NCBI GenBank assembly: GCA_003132865.1
Contig: PKYZ01000490.1
Span: 1,797-8,625, forward strand
Length of the DNA: 6,829 bases
Reading direction: 5' to 3'
DNA from: Bryobacterales bacterium
GTDB lineage: Bacteria; Acidobacteriota; Terriglobia; Bryobacterales; Bryobacteraceae
Shown: positions 511-6,829 of the stretch, piece after piece
Numbering within the stretch: the first letter of the stretch is position 1
How the letters are laid out: every line of letters begins with the position of its first letter
Translations under genes and position numbers: made by a program
Notes under the pieces: generated by a model
What the model saw: only the letters and a program-made list of their open reading frames with translations
Told to the model about the DNA's origin: nothing
The model's database searches: none

Positions 511-2958
511 ATGTCCGGCCCACCGCAGCCCCAACGCGCCGACGACCCGCTCGCCCCCGGGCAACTTCTCGCCGATCGCTTCCGCGTCACACGCCGTATC
601 GCCCAGGGTGGCATGGGAGTGGTCTACGAGGCCTTTGACGAAAAGCTCGGCCGGCGCATCGCTCTGAAGTGTGCGCGTGGAGGGCACGACCGGCATCTGT
701 CTCCCGAAGTCCGCCTGGCCACCAACGTCAGCCATCCCAATATTTGCAAGATCTACGAAATCCACAGCGCGCAAACTCCCCTGGGGCCGCTGGAATTCTT
801 CACCATGGAGTTCCTCGAAGGGTTCACCTTGAAACGCCATCTGGAAGCAGGGAGAATCGGCCGCAAGGAAGCCGAGGCCATCGCCCGCGATTTGTGCGCC
901 GGCCTGGCGGAGGCGCACCGCCACCAGATCATCCATGGCGACATGAAAAGCGCTAATGTCATCCTGACCAAGAATCCAGACGGAACACCGCGTGCCGTGA
1001 TCACCGATTTCGGCCTTGCCCGCGCCGCCCGCACATCCGGCATCCGAGGCGGCTCGGCGGGGTACATGGCGCCGGAACTGTACGCCGGCCAGCCCACCAC
1101 GGTGGCCTCCGATATCTATGCCCTCGGCGTGATCCTGCACGAACTCGCCTCCGGCTTCCGGCCCGACGAGCTGGTCGCCATGTCGGCGAACACGGTGACG
1201 CAACTCCCGTCCGATCCTCCGGTGCGCCTGGACCACCGCCAGCGACTCGCCGCGCTGAGCCAGGCGCCGCCGCGCCCGCTACGTTCACGCTGGGATCCGA
1301 TTCTCAGAACGTGTCTGCAGACCGACCCGAAGCAGCGATACGAAACGGTGGACCAGATTCGGCTGGCGCTGGGGCCCTCTGTGGCGCGCCGCCGCGTGTT
1401 GATTCTGGCCGGCGCGGTGGCGCTGGCTGCCGTCGCCGCCCTGGCGACGTACTGGCGGTCCACCGCACCGACCCAAACCGTGCGGCTCGATGTCGACGCC
1501 GTGCAGGGCCCGCCCCAACTCGCGGCGAAGGTCCGCCAGCAGATGGCGCAACTCAAGAACAGCCCGCTCATCGCGTTTTCCGTGAACGCTTCGCGAGCTA
1601 CCCATCGCCTGTCGGCCGATGTCACGCCGAAGGCCGGCAAGCTGAGGCTGCATGCTGTGCTGAGCGATCTCCGCTCCGGCGCGCCTGTGACGGAGTGGGC
1701 GGCGGATTATGAGCCGGCGCAATTGCGATACGCCCCGGTGGCCCTGACCGGCGTAGCCAGCAGCACCTTCCATCTTCCGCCGCTCACCACCTATGCCACG
1801 GTCAACGCATCGGCGGCGGCTGCTTATCGACAAGGCATCGCGCTCTTGCCGGATGACCGGAAGCTGGACGAGGCTCTCGCCGCCTTCCAGTCCGCCGCCG
1901 GGCTAGATCCCGATTCGGCGCTGCCACTGGCCGGCCTCGCCGAGGTCCAACGGCGCAAGTATTTTCTAACAGACATCCACTCATGGGAGGATCGAGCGAT
2001 GGCGTCATGGCAGCAGGCGGAGCTGCGAAATCCCGACAGCGCCGAGGTGCATTGCATCGCTGGCCTGCTGGAATATGATCGCAGCCACCCGGATCAGGCT
2101 CTCGCCCGCATGCGCCGAGCTACGGAATTTCAGCCTTCACACCGCGATGCCTACCGCCGCCTCGGCCAACTCTATCATCAGGCGGGACAGTTTCCGGAGG
2201 CTCTCCAAGCCTACATCAAAGCCCAGAGTATTGCGCCCGGGGACGCCCGGATTTACCAGGACCTGGCCCACGTCTATAGCGAGCAATCCAATTTCGCCGA
2301 AGCCTCTAAAGCCCTGCAAAGAGCGGTGGAACTCGCCCCGGATCGCCCGCTTTATCGCAGATTGCTTGCCGCTGCCTATCAGGACCAGGGCCAGTTCAGC
2401 GAGGCGGAGGCCGCACTCCGCACCGTGCTCGCTCAGGAACGCTCTCCAGGCACTCTGAGCGCGCTCGGCCACGTCCTCATGTACCAGAAAAGGGACAAGG
2501 AGGCCATCGGGTTGCTATCGGAGGCCGCCAACCTCGAAGATCAGAACGTCTTCACGTGGCTCTGCCTCGGCCTGGCGAGCCAGCGCACGGGCCGCGCCGC
2601 CGATGCGCGAAGAGCGTTTCAGAAAGGGCTCACCGTCGCCGAACACCAAGTCGTGCAACTGCCCAGGAGTGGCTACTTCCACGCCACTCTTGCCTATTTC
2701 TGCGCCCAAACGGGCCAAACCGGCCGCGCCGGCATAGAAGCTGCCCAAGCTGTGCAACTCGCCCCCCGCCACAACGACACACTATGGCTGGCAACGCTAA
2801 CCTACGAACGCATCGGCAAGCGGGCCACCGCCTTAAGAACGCTGGAGTCCGCACCGCGTTCCCTTATACAAGATATGCGGCGTTGGCCGGAAGCGTCCGC
2901 TTTGACCCATGACGAGGGCTTTTCCCAACTGTTGTCGACGTCAGGCGGACAACGCTGA
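511..2958 (+). CDS. Membrane Ser/Thr protein kinase (PknB-type) with C-terminal TPR array
   Basis: This 815-residue protein is a eukaryotic-type Ser/Thr kinase. The kinase domain spans about residues 24-290, with glycine loop AQGGMGVVY (31-39), ATP-binding Lys53, probable helix-C Glu66, catalytic loop HGDMKSAN (142-149, Asp144), DFG 166-168 and APE 187-189. All core catalytic residues are present, but the Arg before Asp144 is replaced by Gly, making it a non-RD kinase. A hydrophobic span at about 296-314 follows three arginines, so the kinase should be cytoplasmic and the rest periplasmic or extracellular. Residues about 320-430 resemble no domain I know; about 437-785 form some eight TPR-like helix pairs, probably a protein-binding sensor. 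ATG 511 is the start giving a complete kinase domain, though no strong ribosome binding site precedes it. The peptidase cassette begins 97 nt downstream on the same strand, so a functional link is plausible but unproven. Confidence 0.93.
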   Translation: MSGPPQPQRADDPLAPGQLLADRFRVTRRIAQGGMGVVYEAFDEKLGRRIALKCARGGHDRHLSPEVRLATNVSHPNICKIYEIHSAQTPLGPLEFFTMEFLEGFTLKRHLEAGRIGRKEAEAIARDLCAGLAEAHRHQIIHGDMKSANVILTKNPDGTPRAVITDFGLARAARTSGIRGGSAGYMAPELYAGQPTTVASDIYALGVILHELASGFRPDELVAMSANTVTQLPSDPPVRLDHRQRLAALSQAPPRPLRSRWDPILRTCLQTDPKQRYETVDQIRLALGPSVARRRVLILAGAVALAAVAALATYWRSTAPTQTVRLDVDAVQGPPQLAAKVRQQMAQLKNSPLIAFSVNASRATHRLSADVTPKAGKLRLHAVLSDLRSGAPVTEWAADYEPAQLRYAPVALTGVASSTFHLPPLTTYATVNASAAAAYRQGIALLPDDRKLDEALAAFQSAAGLDPDSALPLAGLAEVQRRKYFLTDIHSWEDRAMASWQQAELRNPDSAEVHCIAGLLEYDRSHPDQALARMRRATEFQPSHRDAYRRLGQLYHQAGQFPEALQAYIKAQSIAPGDARIYQDLAHVYSEQSNFAEASKALQRAVELAPDRPLYRRLLAAAYQDQGQFSEAEAALRTVLAQERSPGTLSALGHVLMYQKRDKEAIGLLSEAANLEDQNVFTWLCLGLASQRTGRAADARRAFQKGLTVAEHQVVQLPRSGYFHATLAYFCAQTGQTGRAGIEAAQAVQLAPRHNDTLWLATLTYERIGKRATALRTLESAPRSLIQDMRRWPEASALTHDEGFSQLLSTSGGQR

Positions 2959-3055
2959 CCCAACAGCATGACAAGCTCTTGACTTGCCGGCAACCTTGTG
3001 TTGGGATATAGCGACGCTGTATTTTTTCAGCTCTGTGAAAAGGAGACGAATCAGA
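2959..3055 (+). promoter_or_regulatory. Intergenic leader with nested inverted repeats and possible promoter
   Basis: The gap between the kinase stop and the peptide start carries a perfect 7-bp inverted repeat (CCCAACA 2959-2965, TGTTGGG 2999-3005). Inside it are CAAG/CTTG (2972-2975 and 2978-2981) and a perfect 10-bp palindrome TTGCCGGCAA (2984-2993). TTGACT at 2979-2984 matches a -35 box at five of six positions. The best -10 choices (GATATA 3005-3010, spacing 20; TATTTT 3020-3025, too far) are poor. A good Shine-Dalgarno AGGAG (3041-3045) lies 10 nt before ATG 3056. The repeats could be an operator, an attenuator, or a hairpin separating kinase and cassette transcription. No U-run follows, so a classical terminator is unlikely. 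Confidence 0.35.
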
Positions 3056-3211
3056 ATGGCTGCACAAAAAAAGACGGCGCTTGCCAGGAAGCCACGCAAG
3101 GTCAGCCTCAGCGGCGGTAGCGGCGACGCCGGCTCCGGTTCCGATCTCAAAGGCGGCGGATCAAGCGGCGGCGGTAAGATCAAGAAACCCGCAGCAAAGA
3201 AAAAGAAGTGA
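3056..3211 (+). CDS. Small Lys/Gly/Ser-rich peptide, possible peptidase substrate
   Basis: This gene encodes 51 residues in three blocks: a basic N-terminal part (1-16, with KK, RK and RK), a flexible Gly/Ser stretch (17-40, containing GGSG, GGG twice and two Asp), and a basic tail (41-51) ending in four lysines. It has 12 Lys and 11 Gly and no Cys, Trp or Tyr. No signal peptide or membrane segment is visible. ATG 3056 is chosen because AGGAG lies at the right distance; an in-frame TTG at 2984 would add 24 residues but lacks such a site. The stop overlaps the peptidase start (GTGA, 3208-3211), which strongly suggests a real, translationally coupled gene. I do not recognise a family. It could be a substrate, a processed precursor or a nucleic-acid-binding tail protein; the substrate idea rests only on gene order and the Gly-Gly motifs. 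Confidence 0.7.
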   Translation: MAAQKKTALARKPRKVSLSGGSGDAGSGSDLKGGGSSGGGKIKKPAAKKKK

Positions 3212-3765
3212 GCCCCGGCACGACAACTTGCGGTCTTTCGTTCAAAGTGGCGCGGCAGGAGAGGTCCGAATGGTGTTGGGCGGCCGTGTCGGCCGGCGTC
3301 GATCGCTTTTTTCGCCCGGATTCCACCCATAACCAATGTGACATCGCGGGCTCCGTGCTCAATCTGGAATGCTGCAACGGCGCTCAGCCGGCGCAATCCG
3401 ATGCCTGCAACGCGCCGCATGCGCTGCATCCCGTGCTCGGCCGCTATCACTTGCTGGCGGCCGATCCCATTGTGACGCCCCTGGCCTTCGATCGCCTGCG
3501 TACCGAAATCGATGCCGGACGGCCCGTCTGCGTCCTGATCAAATGGCTGGACGGTCAGGGCCAACTGACTGACCGCGGCCACTTCGTCGCCCTCAATGGA
3601 TACCGCGTGACGCCTGCGCAAAAGCAGTTTGTCTCCATCACCGACCCGATATACGGTTCCTCTGAGATCGCCTTCGAGCAATTCACCAGCGGCAAGGGCG
3701 GCTACCGCGACGGTCGCGGCGTGTGGTTCGCCTCATTCCTGGTAGCCAACGAGGCGGCATCCTGA
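3208..3765 (+). CDS. Papain-like cysteine peptidase (AvrRpt2/C70-like)
   Basis: This 185-residue protein matches the compact papain-like peptidase family of Pseudomonas AvrRpt2 (peptidase C70). Cys23 lies in the signature WCWAAVS (22-28), and Gln17 stands six residues before it, as the oxyanion Gln does in papain. His125 is in GHFVALNGY (124-132), and Asp146 in ITDP is the likely third catalytic residue. A cysteine group (Cys44, Cys55, Cys56, Cys67) with the pattern QC-x10-CC-x10-C is typical, as I recall, of bacterial members. The length fits a bare catalytic domain. No signal peptide is seen, so action in the cytoplasm or after leaderless export is likely. It starts at GTG 3208, overlapping the small peptide's stop by 4 nt, and its TGA overlaps the next ATG. 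The fold and catalytic residues are clear; substrate and role are unknown. Confidence 0.88.
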   Translation: MSPGTTTCGLSFKVARQERSEWCWAAVSAGVDRFFRPDSTHNQCDIAGSVLNLECCNGAQPAQSDACNAPHALHPVLGRYHLLAADPIVTPLAFDRLRTEIDAGRPVCVLIKWLDGQGQLTDRGHFVALNGYRVTPAQKQFVSITDPIYGSSEIAFEQFTSGKGGYRDGRGVWFASFLVANEAAS

Positions 3766-4328
3766 TGCCGCTGATATTCGTCCCACCCCCACCCCCCGTC
3801 TATAGCACCTACGAGCAATCGCTGCTCGATTTCATGGGGCCCCACCCTCCCGCAGCCCAGGTCTATCACCTGCCCGTGGGCACGCTAGGGCTGGCGGAAC
3901 TGGCCGCCGGCGCCAAGCTCGCCGACGTCGTTCCCACCGGTTGTCGCATTCTGGCGTCCTGGCCCGATGCAACCTGGACCTCTTGCGAGATGACCAATCC
4001 CACGCTCTACGGGAACGCCAAATTCCGCAATTTCACGGCGGGCGGTCTTGCCGGCGTGGCCTTCGCGCGGATCGGCCAGGCTCAAGCTCTGGACGCGGTG
4101 CGCAGTGAGGATTACGAGCTCCACTTTCTGAGCGTCCCGGGCATCTACCTGGAAGCCTTGCACCTGGTCTGCAAGGGAAAAGGCGGCGACCTCGTTCTGC
4201 CCCTCGTCTCCATCGATCCACAATTGGGCCTCGACGCCGTCTGCGATGAGGCAACGTTCCTCGCCATAGCGCGCGCGAGCGCCGCGGCTCGCGTCAGAAT
4301 GACCAGCACCGATCCCTTGAGCTCGTAG
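3765..4328 (+). CDS. Uncharacterised 187-residue protein coupled to the peptidase
   Basis: I do not recognise this protein. ATG 3765 shares its A with the peptidase stop (TGATG), which decides the start; a frame extending upstream to 3723 lies inside the peptidase gene and is not needed. The protein starts MPLIFV, followed by five prolines (7-11). It then looks like a mixed alpha/beta soluble domain: a helical stretch at 38-52, a Trp/Cys-containing segment at 60-75, an Asn/Phe-rich segment at 78-90 followed by a small-residue helix (92-112), strand-like YELHFLSVPGIYLEALHLV (117-135) and LVLPLVSI (143-150), and a C-terminal helix (161-178). Cys60, 74, 136 and 160 are spread out. It has no signal peptide or membrane span. 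Its position last in a coupled cassette suggests a partner, inhibitor, adaptor or immunity protein for the peptidase; that is inference. Confidence 0.75.
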   Translation: MPLIFVPPPPPVYSTYEQSLLDFMGPHPPAAQVYHLPVGTLGLAELAAGAKLADVVPTGCRILASWPDATWTSCEMTNPTLYGNAKFRNFTAGGLAGVAFARIGQAQALDAVRSEDYELHFLSVPGIYLEALHLVCKGKGGDLVLPLVSIDPQLGLDAVCDEATFLAIARASAAARVRMTSTDPLSS

Positions 4329-4348: not shown

Positions 4349-4809
4349 CGGGAAGACAGGGTCGACAAACCTCCCGCGTCGCACAGCGGAACGCCCGCCG
4401 TAAGGGTCCGTCTTGTGCGCGATAGCCGAGCTTCTTGAGTTCTGATCATGCGCACAGCGCGGGCGCGACTCGGCACTGACTACCGGATTTCGTTCCTCGT
4501 AGCAGACCCCTGATGCGGAATCAGCCAACGAAGTCGGCATAGTCCTGAGCGATGGCCCAGGTAGCTTGTTCGTATCCCAATCGCGGCAGCGGCCCTCAGC
4601 AGTACTCCATACAAATTCCGTTTCTGGAAATTGACGCTCACCGCTCCGTCCGACGGCGCATCCGGAAAGTATCCACTTGACGCTGCCACAAGCGCGGCGG
4701 TGGAACCCAAAGGAACGCGAAGTCCTAGCGCTGTATCGGAAGTGAACCGGCACGAGACGTGCATCGGGAGTGGTTTGATGTGCGGCGCCGGTTCGCTTTC
4801 GATACAGCG
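4338..4809 (+). ncRNA. Large structured RNA, possibly group II intron domain I remnant
   Basis: No protein is recognisable here, but the + strand folds into consecutive helices: TGTGCG/CGCACA (4339-4344, 4380-4385) enclosing CGCGGGA/TCCCGCG (4347-4353, 4372-4378); 7 bp 4414-4420/4450-4456 around GAGCT/AGTTC; a bulged 16-bp helix 4478-4494/4527-4544 around CTGAT/ATCAG (4510-4514, 4520-4524); 4549-4555/4577-4584; 4612-4619/4626-4633; 4638-4644/4697-4703; and an uninterrupted 23-bp helix 4729-4751/4787-4809 around 4758-4765/4777-4784. Wobbles in these helices are G-U on the + strand and would be A-C on the minus strand, which fixes the strand. The GTGTG at 4338 resembles a group II intron 5' end (GUGYG), and the size fits domain I. 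No domain V or reverse transcriptase is in the window, so this would be a truncated intron. An undescribed ncRNA or a structured 3' UTR of the upstream cassette is equally open. Confidence 0.5.
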
Positions 4810-4844
4810 ACTTGAAGGAAGCCGCCCGCGTTTGCGGCGGACGC
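4809..4844 (+). repeat. Left copy of an inverted repeat flanking the recombinase remnant
   Basis: GACTTGAA, one mismatch, GAAGCCGCCCGC, four extra bases (GTTT, 4830-4833) and GCGGCGGACGC are the reverse complement of 5349-5380: 31 of 32 aligned bases agree. Within this copy, ACGCGGG (4841-4847) pairs with the CCCGCGT at 4826-4832, so each copy can also form its own hairpin, as palindromic intergenic repeats (REP-like) do. Confidence 0.7.
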
Positions 4845-4932
4845 GGGCCCTATGGGATTTGAATCGGATTTGGAGATCGACGGCGTCTGGTGGGTACGGT
4901 TTCTGACATCTGGCGCGGCAGAGTGGAGATCT
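4845..4932. other. Unassigned stretch between the repeat and the recombinase remnant
   Basis: The minus-strand recombinase frame stays open through here, but its residues no longer resemble the family. The plus-strand frame starting at 4852 has no family signature either. This is best read as foreign or decayed sequence joined to the recombinase remnant. Confidence 0.4.
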
Positions 4933-5283
4933 ACTGTGTGCCGCGTCGATGAGTCTTGCGACTTCTTCCTGACTCAGGATCGCCGGGAGACGAACGACCT
5001 TCTTCGGATAAGGAGTTTCGTTCGCGCTCCATGGCTTGTTGAGGGTTTTAACGAAGAAGAAGCGCAAGGCCGCCAGCCGTTGCGTCACCGTGTTGGGGGC
5101 CAGTTTTCGCTTGCTGAAAAGCTGTGCCTGATACTCGCGGATGTGCTCCGGACCCAACTGGTCTGGCCGGCGCTTGAAGTATCGTGCAAAATCCTCGACG
5201 GTGCGGATATAGGTGGTTGTTGTACTCTGAGAGTAATTGCGACGCTGGAGTTCCTCCAGCATCATTTTTCGTAAACGGGTCAT
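4933..5283 (-). pseudogene. Tyrosine recombinase/integrase, N-terminal remnant
   Basis: From ATG 5283 the minus strand encodes a typical N-terminal (SAM-like, core-binding) domain of a transposon-associated tyrosine recombinase: MTRLRKMMLEELQRRNYSQS, then the TYIRTVEDFARYF, LGPEHIREYQ and NTVTQRLAALRFFFVKTL motifs (residues 25-81), and the linker LPAILSQEEVARLIDAAH (99-116) that normally leads into the catalytic domain. After about residue 116 the similarity stops. The frame runs on to 4480 with unrelated residues and none of the catalytic Arg, His-x-x-Arg or Tyr positions. The protein cannot recombine DNA. Such recombinases are usually about 290-330 residues and, in my recollection, often travel with IS91-type transposases. 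The break near 4933 is a clean loss of homology rather than a visible frameshift, so a deletion or insertion joint is likely. Confidence 0.8.
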
Positions 5284-5537: not shown

Positions 5538-6197
5538 TCACCCGGCCAAAGAAGCGTGATGCCGCACATCGACACCCCGCAGGTAAAAGAGCACATCCTC
5601 GCCGATGTTGGTAGCGTGGTCGGCGATCCGCTCCAGGTGGCGCACTACGAAGAGCAGGTGGACAGCCGACGGTAACGACGACGTATCGCTCTGCATGAAG
5701 GCGATCAGGTCGCTGTAAAGCCCGTCCCGCAACCGATCTACGGCGTCATCCGAAAGCAGGACGCGCTGCGCTAACTCGGCATCCTGACGCGTCAGCGCAT
5801 CCAGGCTGTCGTGCACCATGGCCTCCGCCAGTTGGGCGAGGCGCGGGATGTCCAAAACCGGCAGCGGTGGTTGCTGCATCAAAGAGAGCGCCCGCTCGGC
5901 GATATGTGCGGCCAGGTCGCCCATACGTTCCAGGTCGTTATTGATTTTGATGGTTGCGGCCAGGAAGCGCATGTCTCGCGCCATGGGCTGGTGTAGCGCC
6001 ATCAGACGCACGGCGAAATCGTCGATCTCGATCTCCAAGGCGTCGACATGGGACTCGCTTGCCAGCACCTGGCGCGCGCGCGCCTCGTCCCTATCGACCA
6101 GCGCGCCGATGCTGTTGTGGAGGGCCGATTCTACCTGCCCACCCATTTCCAGCAGCCGGGTCTGCAGATCCTCGAGTTGCCGATCGAAGCGGCGCAA
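5538..6197 (-). CDS. Phosphate signalling complex protein PhoU
   Basis: This 219-residue protein is a full-length PhoU, the cytoplasmic regulator linking the PstSCAB phosphate transporter to the PhoR/PhoB (or equivalent) two-component system. It shows the twofold repeat of three-helix bundles. The first bundle carries FDRQLEDLQ (4-12) and the metal-binding signature NNDLERMGDLAAHIAE (86-101). The second carries HLERIADHATNIGED (187-201). Length and both motifs are normal. The start is called as TTG 6197, preceded by GAGG (6206-6203) at 5 nt; no in-frame ATG or GTG lies between it and the upstream stop at 6266-6264, and ATG at codon 18 would cut into the first helix. pst genes are not visible; the next gene upstream on the same strand is an unrelated lipid-transport ATPase about 400 nt away, so phoU is probably transcribed separately. 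Confidence 0.95.
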   Translation of the reverse strand: MRRFDRQLEDLQTRLLEMGGQVESALHNSIGALVDRDEARARQVLASESHVDALEIEIDDFAVRLMALHQPMARDMRFLAATIKINNDLERMGDLAAHIAERALSLMQQPPLPVLDIPRLAQLAEAMVHDSLDALTRQDAELAQRVLLSDDAVDRLRDGLYSDLIAFMQSDTSSLPSAVHLLFVVRHLERIADHATNIGEDVLFYLRGVDVRHHASLAG

Positions 6198-6593: not shown

Positions 6594-6829
6594 CTACGCC
6601 ACCCGGTCCATCTCCAAAAACTCCCGCACGTGCGGATGATCCGACTTCGCCAGATCCGCGGGCGGACCAAAGAAGATCACCTTGCCTTCAAACAGAAACA
6701 CCACCTGGTCGGCGACTTTGTACATCAGGTCCAGGTCGTGCGTCACCACGATCGAAGTCAGCCCGAGGTTTTTCTTTAGCCGCAGCATCAGGTCGCTGAG
6801 GTGGTCGGACATGATGGGGTCCACCATGG
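6594..6829 (-). CDS. ABC transporter ATP-binding protein, MlaF-like (C-terminal part)
   Basis: The gene enters from the right edge; only its last 77-78 codons are visible, so the true start lies outside and the ATG at 6827 is internal. What is seen is the end of an ABC ATPase: D-loop VDPIM (residues 2-6 of the visible part), strand SIVVTHD (25-31) with the switch histidine, then MYKVADQVVFLFEGKVIFFGPP and a tail HPHVREFLEM. The tail (D/H-P-x-V-x-x-F-L) and the DPI-M pattern fit MlaF/Ttg2A, the cytoplasmic ATPase of the Mla system that moves phospholipids between outer and inner membranes with MlaE, MlaD and MlaB. Walker A, Q-loop and signature motif would lie outside the window. Another ABC importer ATPase of the Mce/Mla type is the main alternative. 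The stop is TAG at 6596-6594. Confidence 0.8.
   Translation of the reverse strand, partial: MVDPIMSDHLSDLMLRLKKNLGLTSIVVTHDLDLMYKVADQVVFLFEGKVIFFGPPADLAKSDHPHVREFLEMDRVA

Follow-up and report, generated by a model that had tools for sequence, protein, structure and literature searches.

A peptidase-P3 gene pair joined to a kinase and a Gly-rich peptide in Bryobacterales

Bacterial papain-like peptidases encoded next to their own guard are already a known kind of system, as represented by staphopain and staphostatin (a C47 peptidase and its cytoplasmic inhibitor), SpeB and Spi, the Bacteroides C10 peptidases with Bfi and Bti, and Cpe1 with Cpi1. According to parts of one account, Spi and the staphostatins are thought to block prematurely active peptidases in the cytoplasm (PMC3462683). 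Here we describe a comparable arrangement in a 6,829-nucleotide stretch of DNA from a Bryobacterales bacterium (assembly GCA_003132865.1, contig PKYZ01000490.1, positions 1,797 to 8,625; hereafter the window). A preliminary description of this DNA had recognized three coupled genes at 3056..4328, encoding a Gly-rich peptide, a papain-like peptidase and an unrecognized protein, here called P3. All three open reading frames (ORFs) were present at these positions in the ORF listing of the window, together with the GTGA overlap (3208-3211) in which the peptide gene ends and the peptidase gene starts at a GTG codon, and the TGATG overlap in which the peptidase and P3 genes share base 3765. Both overlaps are repeated in L118, the nearest relative with available DNA (peptidase 81% identical). 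The three genes were thus correctly recognized, but the start of the cassette lies further upstream, a kinase gene at 511-2958 having been missed. The cassette therefore consists of four genes, for a kinase, the Gly-rich peptide, the peptidase and P3, and its composition is best explained by the joining of two modules, the peptidase with P3 and the kinase with a small Gly-rich protein.

The pairing of a peptidase with an adjacent candidate guard is shared with the staphopain, SpeB and C10 systems. In contrast to these, no secretion signal was seen on the window peptidase, while P3, at 187 residues, is larger, matches no solved structure in sequence and is in some cases fused in cis; in Bryobacterales it is also linked to the kinase and the Gly-rich protein. 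What sets the pair apart from Cpe1-Cpi1 is the conservation of P3 across phyla and its fusion to the peptidase at 14 loci; in addition, the window genes scanned showed no delivery system. Neither the peptidase-P3 pair nor the kinase cassette was described in the literature searched, which comprised open-licence papers, and relative to that literature the partner family P3, its fusion in cis and the four-gene form with the kinase appear to be new.

The peptidase and its partner P3

The comparison of gene neighborhoods covered 101 peptidase loci, of which 28 belong to Bryobacterales, 72 are spread over many phyla and one is viral. The best 80 of 330 confirmed relatives had been kept as loci, 20 of them from Pseudomonas, so that the best-scoring relatives are over-represented; L001-L006, L020 and L078, which are the same places as L119, L120, L121, L126, L124, L145, L146 and L152, were dropped as duplicates. 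The 28 Bryobacterales loci are all the peptidase matches found, in 25 genomes, among 257 genomes of the order to which the Bryobacteraceae assembly G003 belongs. P3 was present at 90 of the 101 loci in many phyla, without exception on the strand of the peptidase and behind its domain. In 14 cases it was fused to the peptidase, and HHalign showed the fused C-terminal domain to be a homologue of P3 (probability 99.4, E 1.7e-21, 177 columns). Within Bryobacterales P3 was found at 26 of the 28 loci, with a weak match in L148 (18.9 bits). It is absent from 11 loci, namely L150 and L151 of this order, L022, L024, L031, L044, L049, L067 (at a contig end), L074, L079, and the single viral contig L153, which is partial and distant. 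Since genome surveys began with a loose first look and scored few candidates per genome, their tallies are lower bounds: P3 was detected in 13 of the 257 genomes of the order, every time beside a peptidase match, in 5 of 396 genomes of the phylum, with the peptidase adjacent or fused in all five, and in 4 of 398 genomes of a proteobacterial sample, where the peptidase was checked directly at three and the fourth is L051 itself. By these results the gene order exceeds chance and the cassette is co-inherited, which bears out the earlier view of a cassette with a leaderless papain-like peptidase and an unrecognized partner, and we regard the peptidase and P3 as almost certainly functional partners. 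Such a partnership also fits the earlier idea that the third protein controls the peptidase. Constant company had been expected of the peptide as well as of P3, and while this largely held for P3, the peptide was absent at all 64 P3-containing loci outside Bryobacterales (strict test, see below).

A single profile recognizes P3 across phyla. It belongs to no Pfam family, gave only matches far below cut-off in NCBIfam, and its profile matched no PDB sequence up to E 10. Fold matches to cystatins and to PepSY domains (YpmB) were at noise level and had no counterpart in sequence; staphostatin likewise had no sequence match to P3 and was not among the fold matches listed. A recurrent feature is the C-terminus, where two small residues occur at 60 of 90 loci (for example DDTMGA, DADTSGLLGS and DPLSS), or in 24 of 52 cluster representatives versus 73 of 794 control ORFs, which were generated mechanically and some of which are surely spurious. 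In a model of a fused peptidase-P3 protein the C-terminal tail is of low confidence.

The peptidase shows the residue order of clan CA, with Q17, C23, H125 and D146 conserved and their roles assigned by analogy; C23, named earlier as the catalytic Cys, lies in a WCW motif. A papain-like fold was obtained for a relative of the window protein. The earlier C70-type label turned out to be borderline. As in the C70 peptidases AvrRpt2 and EvpQ, the Peptidase_C70 model (PF12385) matches several relatives over its cut-off of 19 bits, but the window protein falls just under it at 18.9 bits and is paired with P3, while passing the cut-off of Peptidase_C39_2 (PF13529; 28.3 versus 24 bits). Pfam revealed no delivery domain in the window peptidase, and no signal peptide was apparent when its N-terminus was read by eye. 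A 99% identical copy exists in the protein collection (P0001), and the nearest relatives with a named record are from Acidobacteriota, mostly Bryobacterales. In L031 the catalytic Cys is replaced by Ala; L049 and L145 have Cys. C44, C55, C56 and C67 are conserved in this leaderless protein, for which disulfides of an exported ancestor and a metal site are both possible explanations. Six P3-linked peptidases (L013, L014, L015, L035, L054 and L080) carry large N-terminal repeat regions and no signal-like N-terminus; among them, L013 gave matches to tectonin and lectin models and L015 to BTRD1 repeats. The Pfam C70 model matches in 68 of the 257 Bryobacterales genomes, P3-linked peptidases included.

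The kinase and the Gly-rich peptide

The window kinase passes Pkinase (PF00069) with 121.5 bits (cut-off 31.7) and contains GGMGVVY, ALKC, HGDMK, DFGLA and APE motifs. With its kinase, membrane helix and TPR parts it resembles Hanks-type Ser/Thr kinases with TPR repeats, from which it is set apart by the linkage of the orthologue to the peptidase cassette in the genomes that score best. Since a single strong membrane helix is predicted (residues 296-314), the TPR part would lie outside. Among the 28 Bryobacterales loci, a kinase-TPR gene was located directly upstream of the peptidase in 19, a few of them fragments owing to contig edges or a broken frame, and a twentieth, L125, begins within what by eye appear to be the last kinase residues. 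L132 and L149 start at a contig edge, and no kinase was seen in the available sequence of the other six (L131, L133, L148, L150, L151 and L152). The kinase is a specific orthologue, being the sole locus that matched at E <= 1e-60 in 6 of 6 genomes searched. Kinase matches were obtained in 34 of the 257 genomes of the order, of which 16 also have the peptidase and 18, lower-scoring, do not; among the 13 top-scoring kinase genomes the peptidase was present in all 13. Two metagenome proteins, P0155 and P0157, join a piece of a kinase domain directly to P3, as a result of either cassette deletion or assembly error.

All 20 kinase-linked Bryobacterales loci have, between kinase and peptidase, a small ORF or segment containing Gly-rich stretches, which is a separate ORF in 18 and is fused in frame to the peptidase in L129 and L135. 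The separate ORFs contain 9 to 35% Gly, the weakest cases being L145 and L147 (12% and 10%, without GGG). Short forms (window, L118, L119-L123, L126, L128 and L146) are Gly-rich with Lys-rich parts, and some have exact repeats, such as GGGGNPSTR, which occurs three times in L146. The long forms number nine, including one fused form, and have in common an N-terminal stretch (MxIEYKIxx...TITQRVEP where best preserved), Gly-rich parts and a hydrophobic GPIVI-like motif; L136 is intermediate. The long-form peptide of L130 (7677-8060) has three GGTQGDPF repeats and a weak, sub-threshold resemblance to an octapeptide-repeat model, probably of composition only. The window peptide fits no known Pfam family, its NCBIfam matches were all far under cut-off, and none of ten peptides and fused forms of relatives exceeded a Pfam cut-off; the spacing in the peptide seems not to fit RTX-type calcium repeats.

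A stricter test for the peptide called for a Shine-Dalgarno-like motif, GGG or GGSG, at least 26 residues and an end near the peptidase. It was passed at 15 of 21 kinase-linked loci (window included), at one of the four Bryobacterales loci with P3 and no kinase (L148, an unrelated-looking protein), and at none of the 64 P3-containing loci outside the order. The six kinase-linked misses comprise the two fused forms and L130, L134, L145 and L147, which fail the motif filter and still have a small ORF with Gly-containing stretches. It is hardly credible that the peptide frame is spurious and the cassette a set of chance neighbors whose overlaps reflect dense packing only. The low complexity of the peptide would suit such an explanation, as would its comparison with L118, in which the two are 62% identical and differ by 9 silent versus 19 amino-acid-changing codons, with no clear excess of silent changes. 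However, all insertions and deletions between these two peptide genes are in-frame, Shine-Dalgarno-like motifs precede many of the ORFs, and the Gly-rich ORF or segment is present at 20 of 20 kinase-linked relatives versus 0 of 64 loci outside the order by the strict test. From its sequence, the peptide looks like a real gene under loose constraint.

Its distribution also indicates that the peptide is not a constant partner of the peptidase. Kinase relatives at 13 places without a known cassette were fetched, of which 10 were informative, L193, L200 and L204 ending at a contig edge. At seven of the 10 (L192, L194, L197, L198, L199, L201 and L202) a protein of 106-133 residues is encoded 12-48 bases behind the kinase on the same strand, in six cases ending in a Gly-containing stretch (for example GGEIVPDSGGS or GGGGGQGGGGNGG); no such protein was found at L195, L196 and L203. 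A small protein with a Gly-containing tail is thus frequent in the position behind the kinase, with or without a peptidase. No Pfam family fits these seven proteins and no homology to the long-form cassette peptides was detected (HHalign probability 0.1), so that only the position and an often Gly-containing end are common to both groups. In its distribution the peptide accompanies the kinase, not the peptidase. This weighs against the peptide being a substrate that the peptidase cuts at Gly-Gly to give small signal or antimicrobial peptides, pheromone-like or similar to ribosomally synthesized and post-translationally modified peptides (RiPPs), a reading that we consider improbable. It is further countered by the fusion of the Gly-rich part to the peptidase in L129 and L135 and by the wide variation of the inter-glycine sequences among relatives, as well as by the window itself, in which neither a transporter nor a modifying enzyme was found to be linked to the cassette; the RiPP-like cassette envisaged in the preliminary description was therefore not supported.

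Features and surroundings of the window

The features of the cassette are collected in Table 1. GGAG, the Shine-Dalgarno-like motif, ends ten bases ahead of the peptide ATG.

Table 1. Coordinates of cassette features in the window.
Feature	Position	Strand	Basis
Ser/Thr protein kinase with C-terminal TPR repeats, 815 residues, first cassette gene	511..2958	+	Pfam Pkinase and TPR; motifs; orthologue upstream of cassette in relatives
Predicted membrane helix of kinase, residues 296-314	1396..1452	+	Hydropathy maximum 2.33
Shine-Dalgarno-like GGAG before peptide gene	3042..3045	+	Sequence AAAAGGAGACGAATCAGAATG; similar motifs precede many relatives' peptide ORFs
Gly-rich, Lys-rich peptide, 51 residues, ATG start	3056..3211	+	ORF; four database homologues P0159-P0162; same-slot segments in 20 kinase-linked relatives
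Gly-rich core, peptide residues 19-40	3110..3175	+	SDLKGG motif kept in L118 and P0159-P0162
Papain-like cysteine peptidase (C39_2/C70-type, WCW motif), 185 residues, no signal peptide seen	3208..3765	+	
Gln17 to Cys23, likely oxyanion-hole Gln and catalytic Cys	3256..3276	+	Q17 and C23 conserved in at least 90% of 33 sequences
Catalytic His125	3580..3582	+	Invariant among 33 sequences
Asp146, likely third catalytic residue	3643..3645	+	Conserved in at least 90% of 33 sequences
P3, peptidase partner of 187 residues, ATG start, no Pfam family; likely holds or regulates peptidase	3765..4328	+	58 homologues; adjacent or fused at 90/101 peptidase loci; model pLDDT 93.3
P3 C-terminal tail TSTDPLSS; small-residue end in many lineages	4302..4325	+	C-terminal residue counts

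Behind the cassette, on the minus strand, an ORF at 4480-5283 probably represents a truncated integrase, as its match to phage integrases (residues 4-86 of 267) is limited to their SAM-like N-terminal domain. It is followed on the same strand by a PhoU protein (5538-6197, Pfam) and by an ORF cut by the window end (6594-6827), which by eye resembles the C-terminus of an ABC-transporter ATPase and has no Pfam match. A bacteriocin or RiPP cassette was rejected as a classification, as no exporter or modifying enzyme tied to the cassette was present among the window genes scanned. The same applies to a defence system, since the peptide, the peptidase and P3 had no PADLOC match and the kinase matched PD-T4-6 and other kinase models, as is expected of such kinases.

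Possible roles of P3 and the kinase

We tentatively propose a cytoplasmic peptidase that is restrained by P3 and, in Bryobacterales, wired to the membrane kinase through the Gly-rich protein, an overall picture that is possible, though we place it somewhat short of probable. Gene order, co-occurrence, fusions, the peptidase fold (of a relative) and the conserved catalytic residues are observed, and we infer binding and inhibition by P3, phosphorylation of the peptide and gating by the kinase. P3 would bind the leaderless peptidase, most likely keeping it inactive or restricted in the cytoplasm. The transmembrane kinase would sense a signal through its TPR part on the far side of the membrane and be switched by it; the Gly-rich and probably disordered protein, most likely the kinase's own partner as phosphoacceptor or tether, would pass the state of the kinase to the peptidase-P3 complex, and the released peptidase would then cut its target.

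The guard role of P3 is favored by the distribution of signal-like hydrophobic N-termini, which were found in none of the 90 peptidases with P3 versus 6 of the 11 without (Fisher p 3.6e-7); among the other proteins without P3, that of L031 has lost its catalytic Cys. By analogy, the distribution of P3 most likely follows the logic of the staphostatins, as a guard in the cytoplasm. Cpe1 and its C39-type relatives ComA and LahT are described, in parts of one report, as cleaving at Gly-Gly (PMC12136450), which makes it attractive to view the P3 tail as product-like, and its small residues possibly mimic a Gly-Gly cleavage product.

Several observations weigh against P3 as a guard. The test for signal-like N-termini is crude, and the loci without P3 may owe this shared feature to common ancestry. 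Moreover, C70-type peptidases of the same order that lack the WCW motif (L169-L188) were without P3 at 20 of 20 loci fetched, and the eight that were read look leaderless, which counters a rule that a cytoplasmic peptidase has P3. Finally, C-terminal fusions (14 of 90) hold P3 on the enzyme, which would be no less fitting for a working subunit than for an inhibitor. P3 might accordingly be a positive partner, that is, a chaperone, specificity subunit or targeting domain that the peptidase requires for folding or for finding its substrate, as would be in line with its being one family recognized by a single profile across phyla and with the extra binding domains of some relatives (a tectonin-like propeller, BTRD1 repeats). 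We consider this somewhat unlikely, since the absence of P3 where the peptidase has a signal-like N-terminus would be unexpected for an essential subunit.

The same 14 fusions speak against a further possibility, in which the peptidase would be an interbacterial toxin and P3 its immunity protein, in the manner of Cpe1 and Cpi1. Immunity proteins are not generally fused to the toxin they counteract. In addition, no delivery domain was seen in the window peptidase, and P3 forms one conserved family, unlike the putative Cpi1 proteins, for which considerable sequence divergence is noted in parts of the same report (PMC12136450). We regard a toxin-immunity pair as improbable.

In a more far-reaching reading, the cassette would be a one-operon protease switch, in which a TPR-kinase receptor would phosphorylate a rapidly evolving Gly-rich adaptor and thereby free the peptidase from P3, a member of a pan-bacterial restraining family. 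In this complete form the proposal is unlikely. If true, it would make P3 a phylum-crossing cognate regulator of papain-like peptidases, acting both in trans and fused in cis. For P3, an uncharacterized family, the present results provide a firm partner across many phyla, in trans and in cis, and its function is directly testable with two proteins. Should P3 be an inhibitor, a broad family would join the small number of cytoplasmic guards known for papain-like peptidases of bacteria, and should the kinase gate the peptidase, the cassette would represent a compact receptor-to-protease pathway in an order known here mostly from metagenome assemblies.
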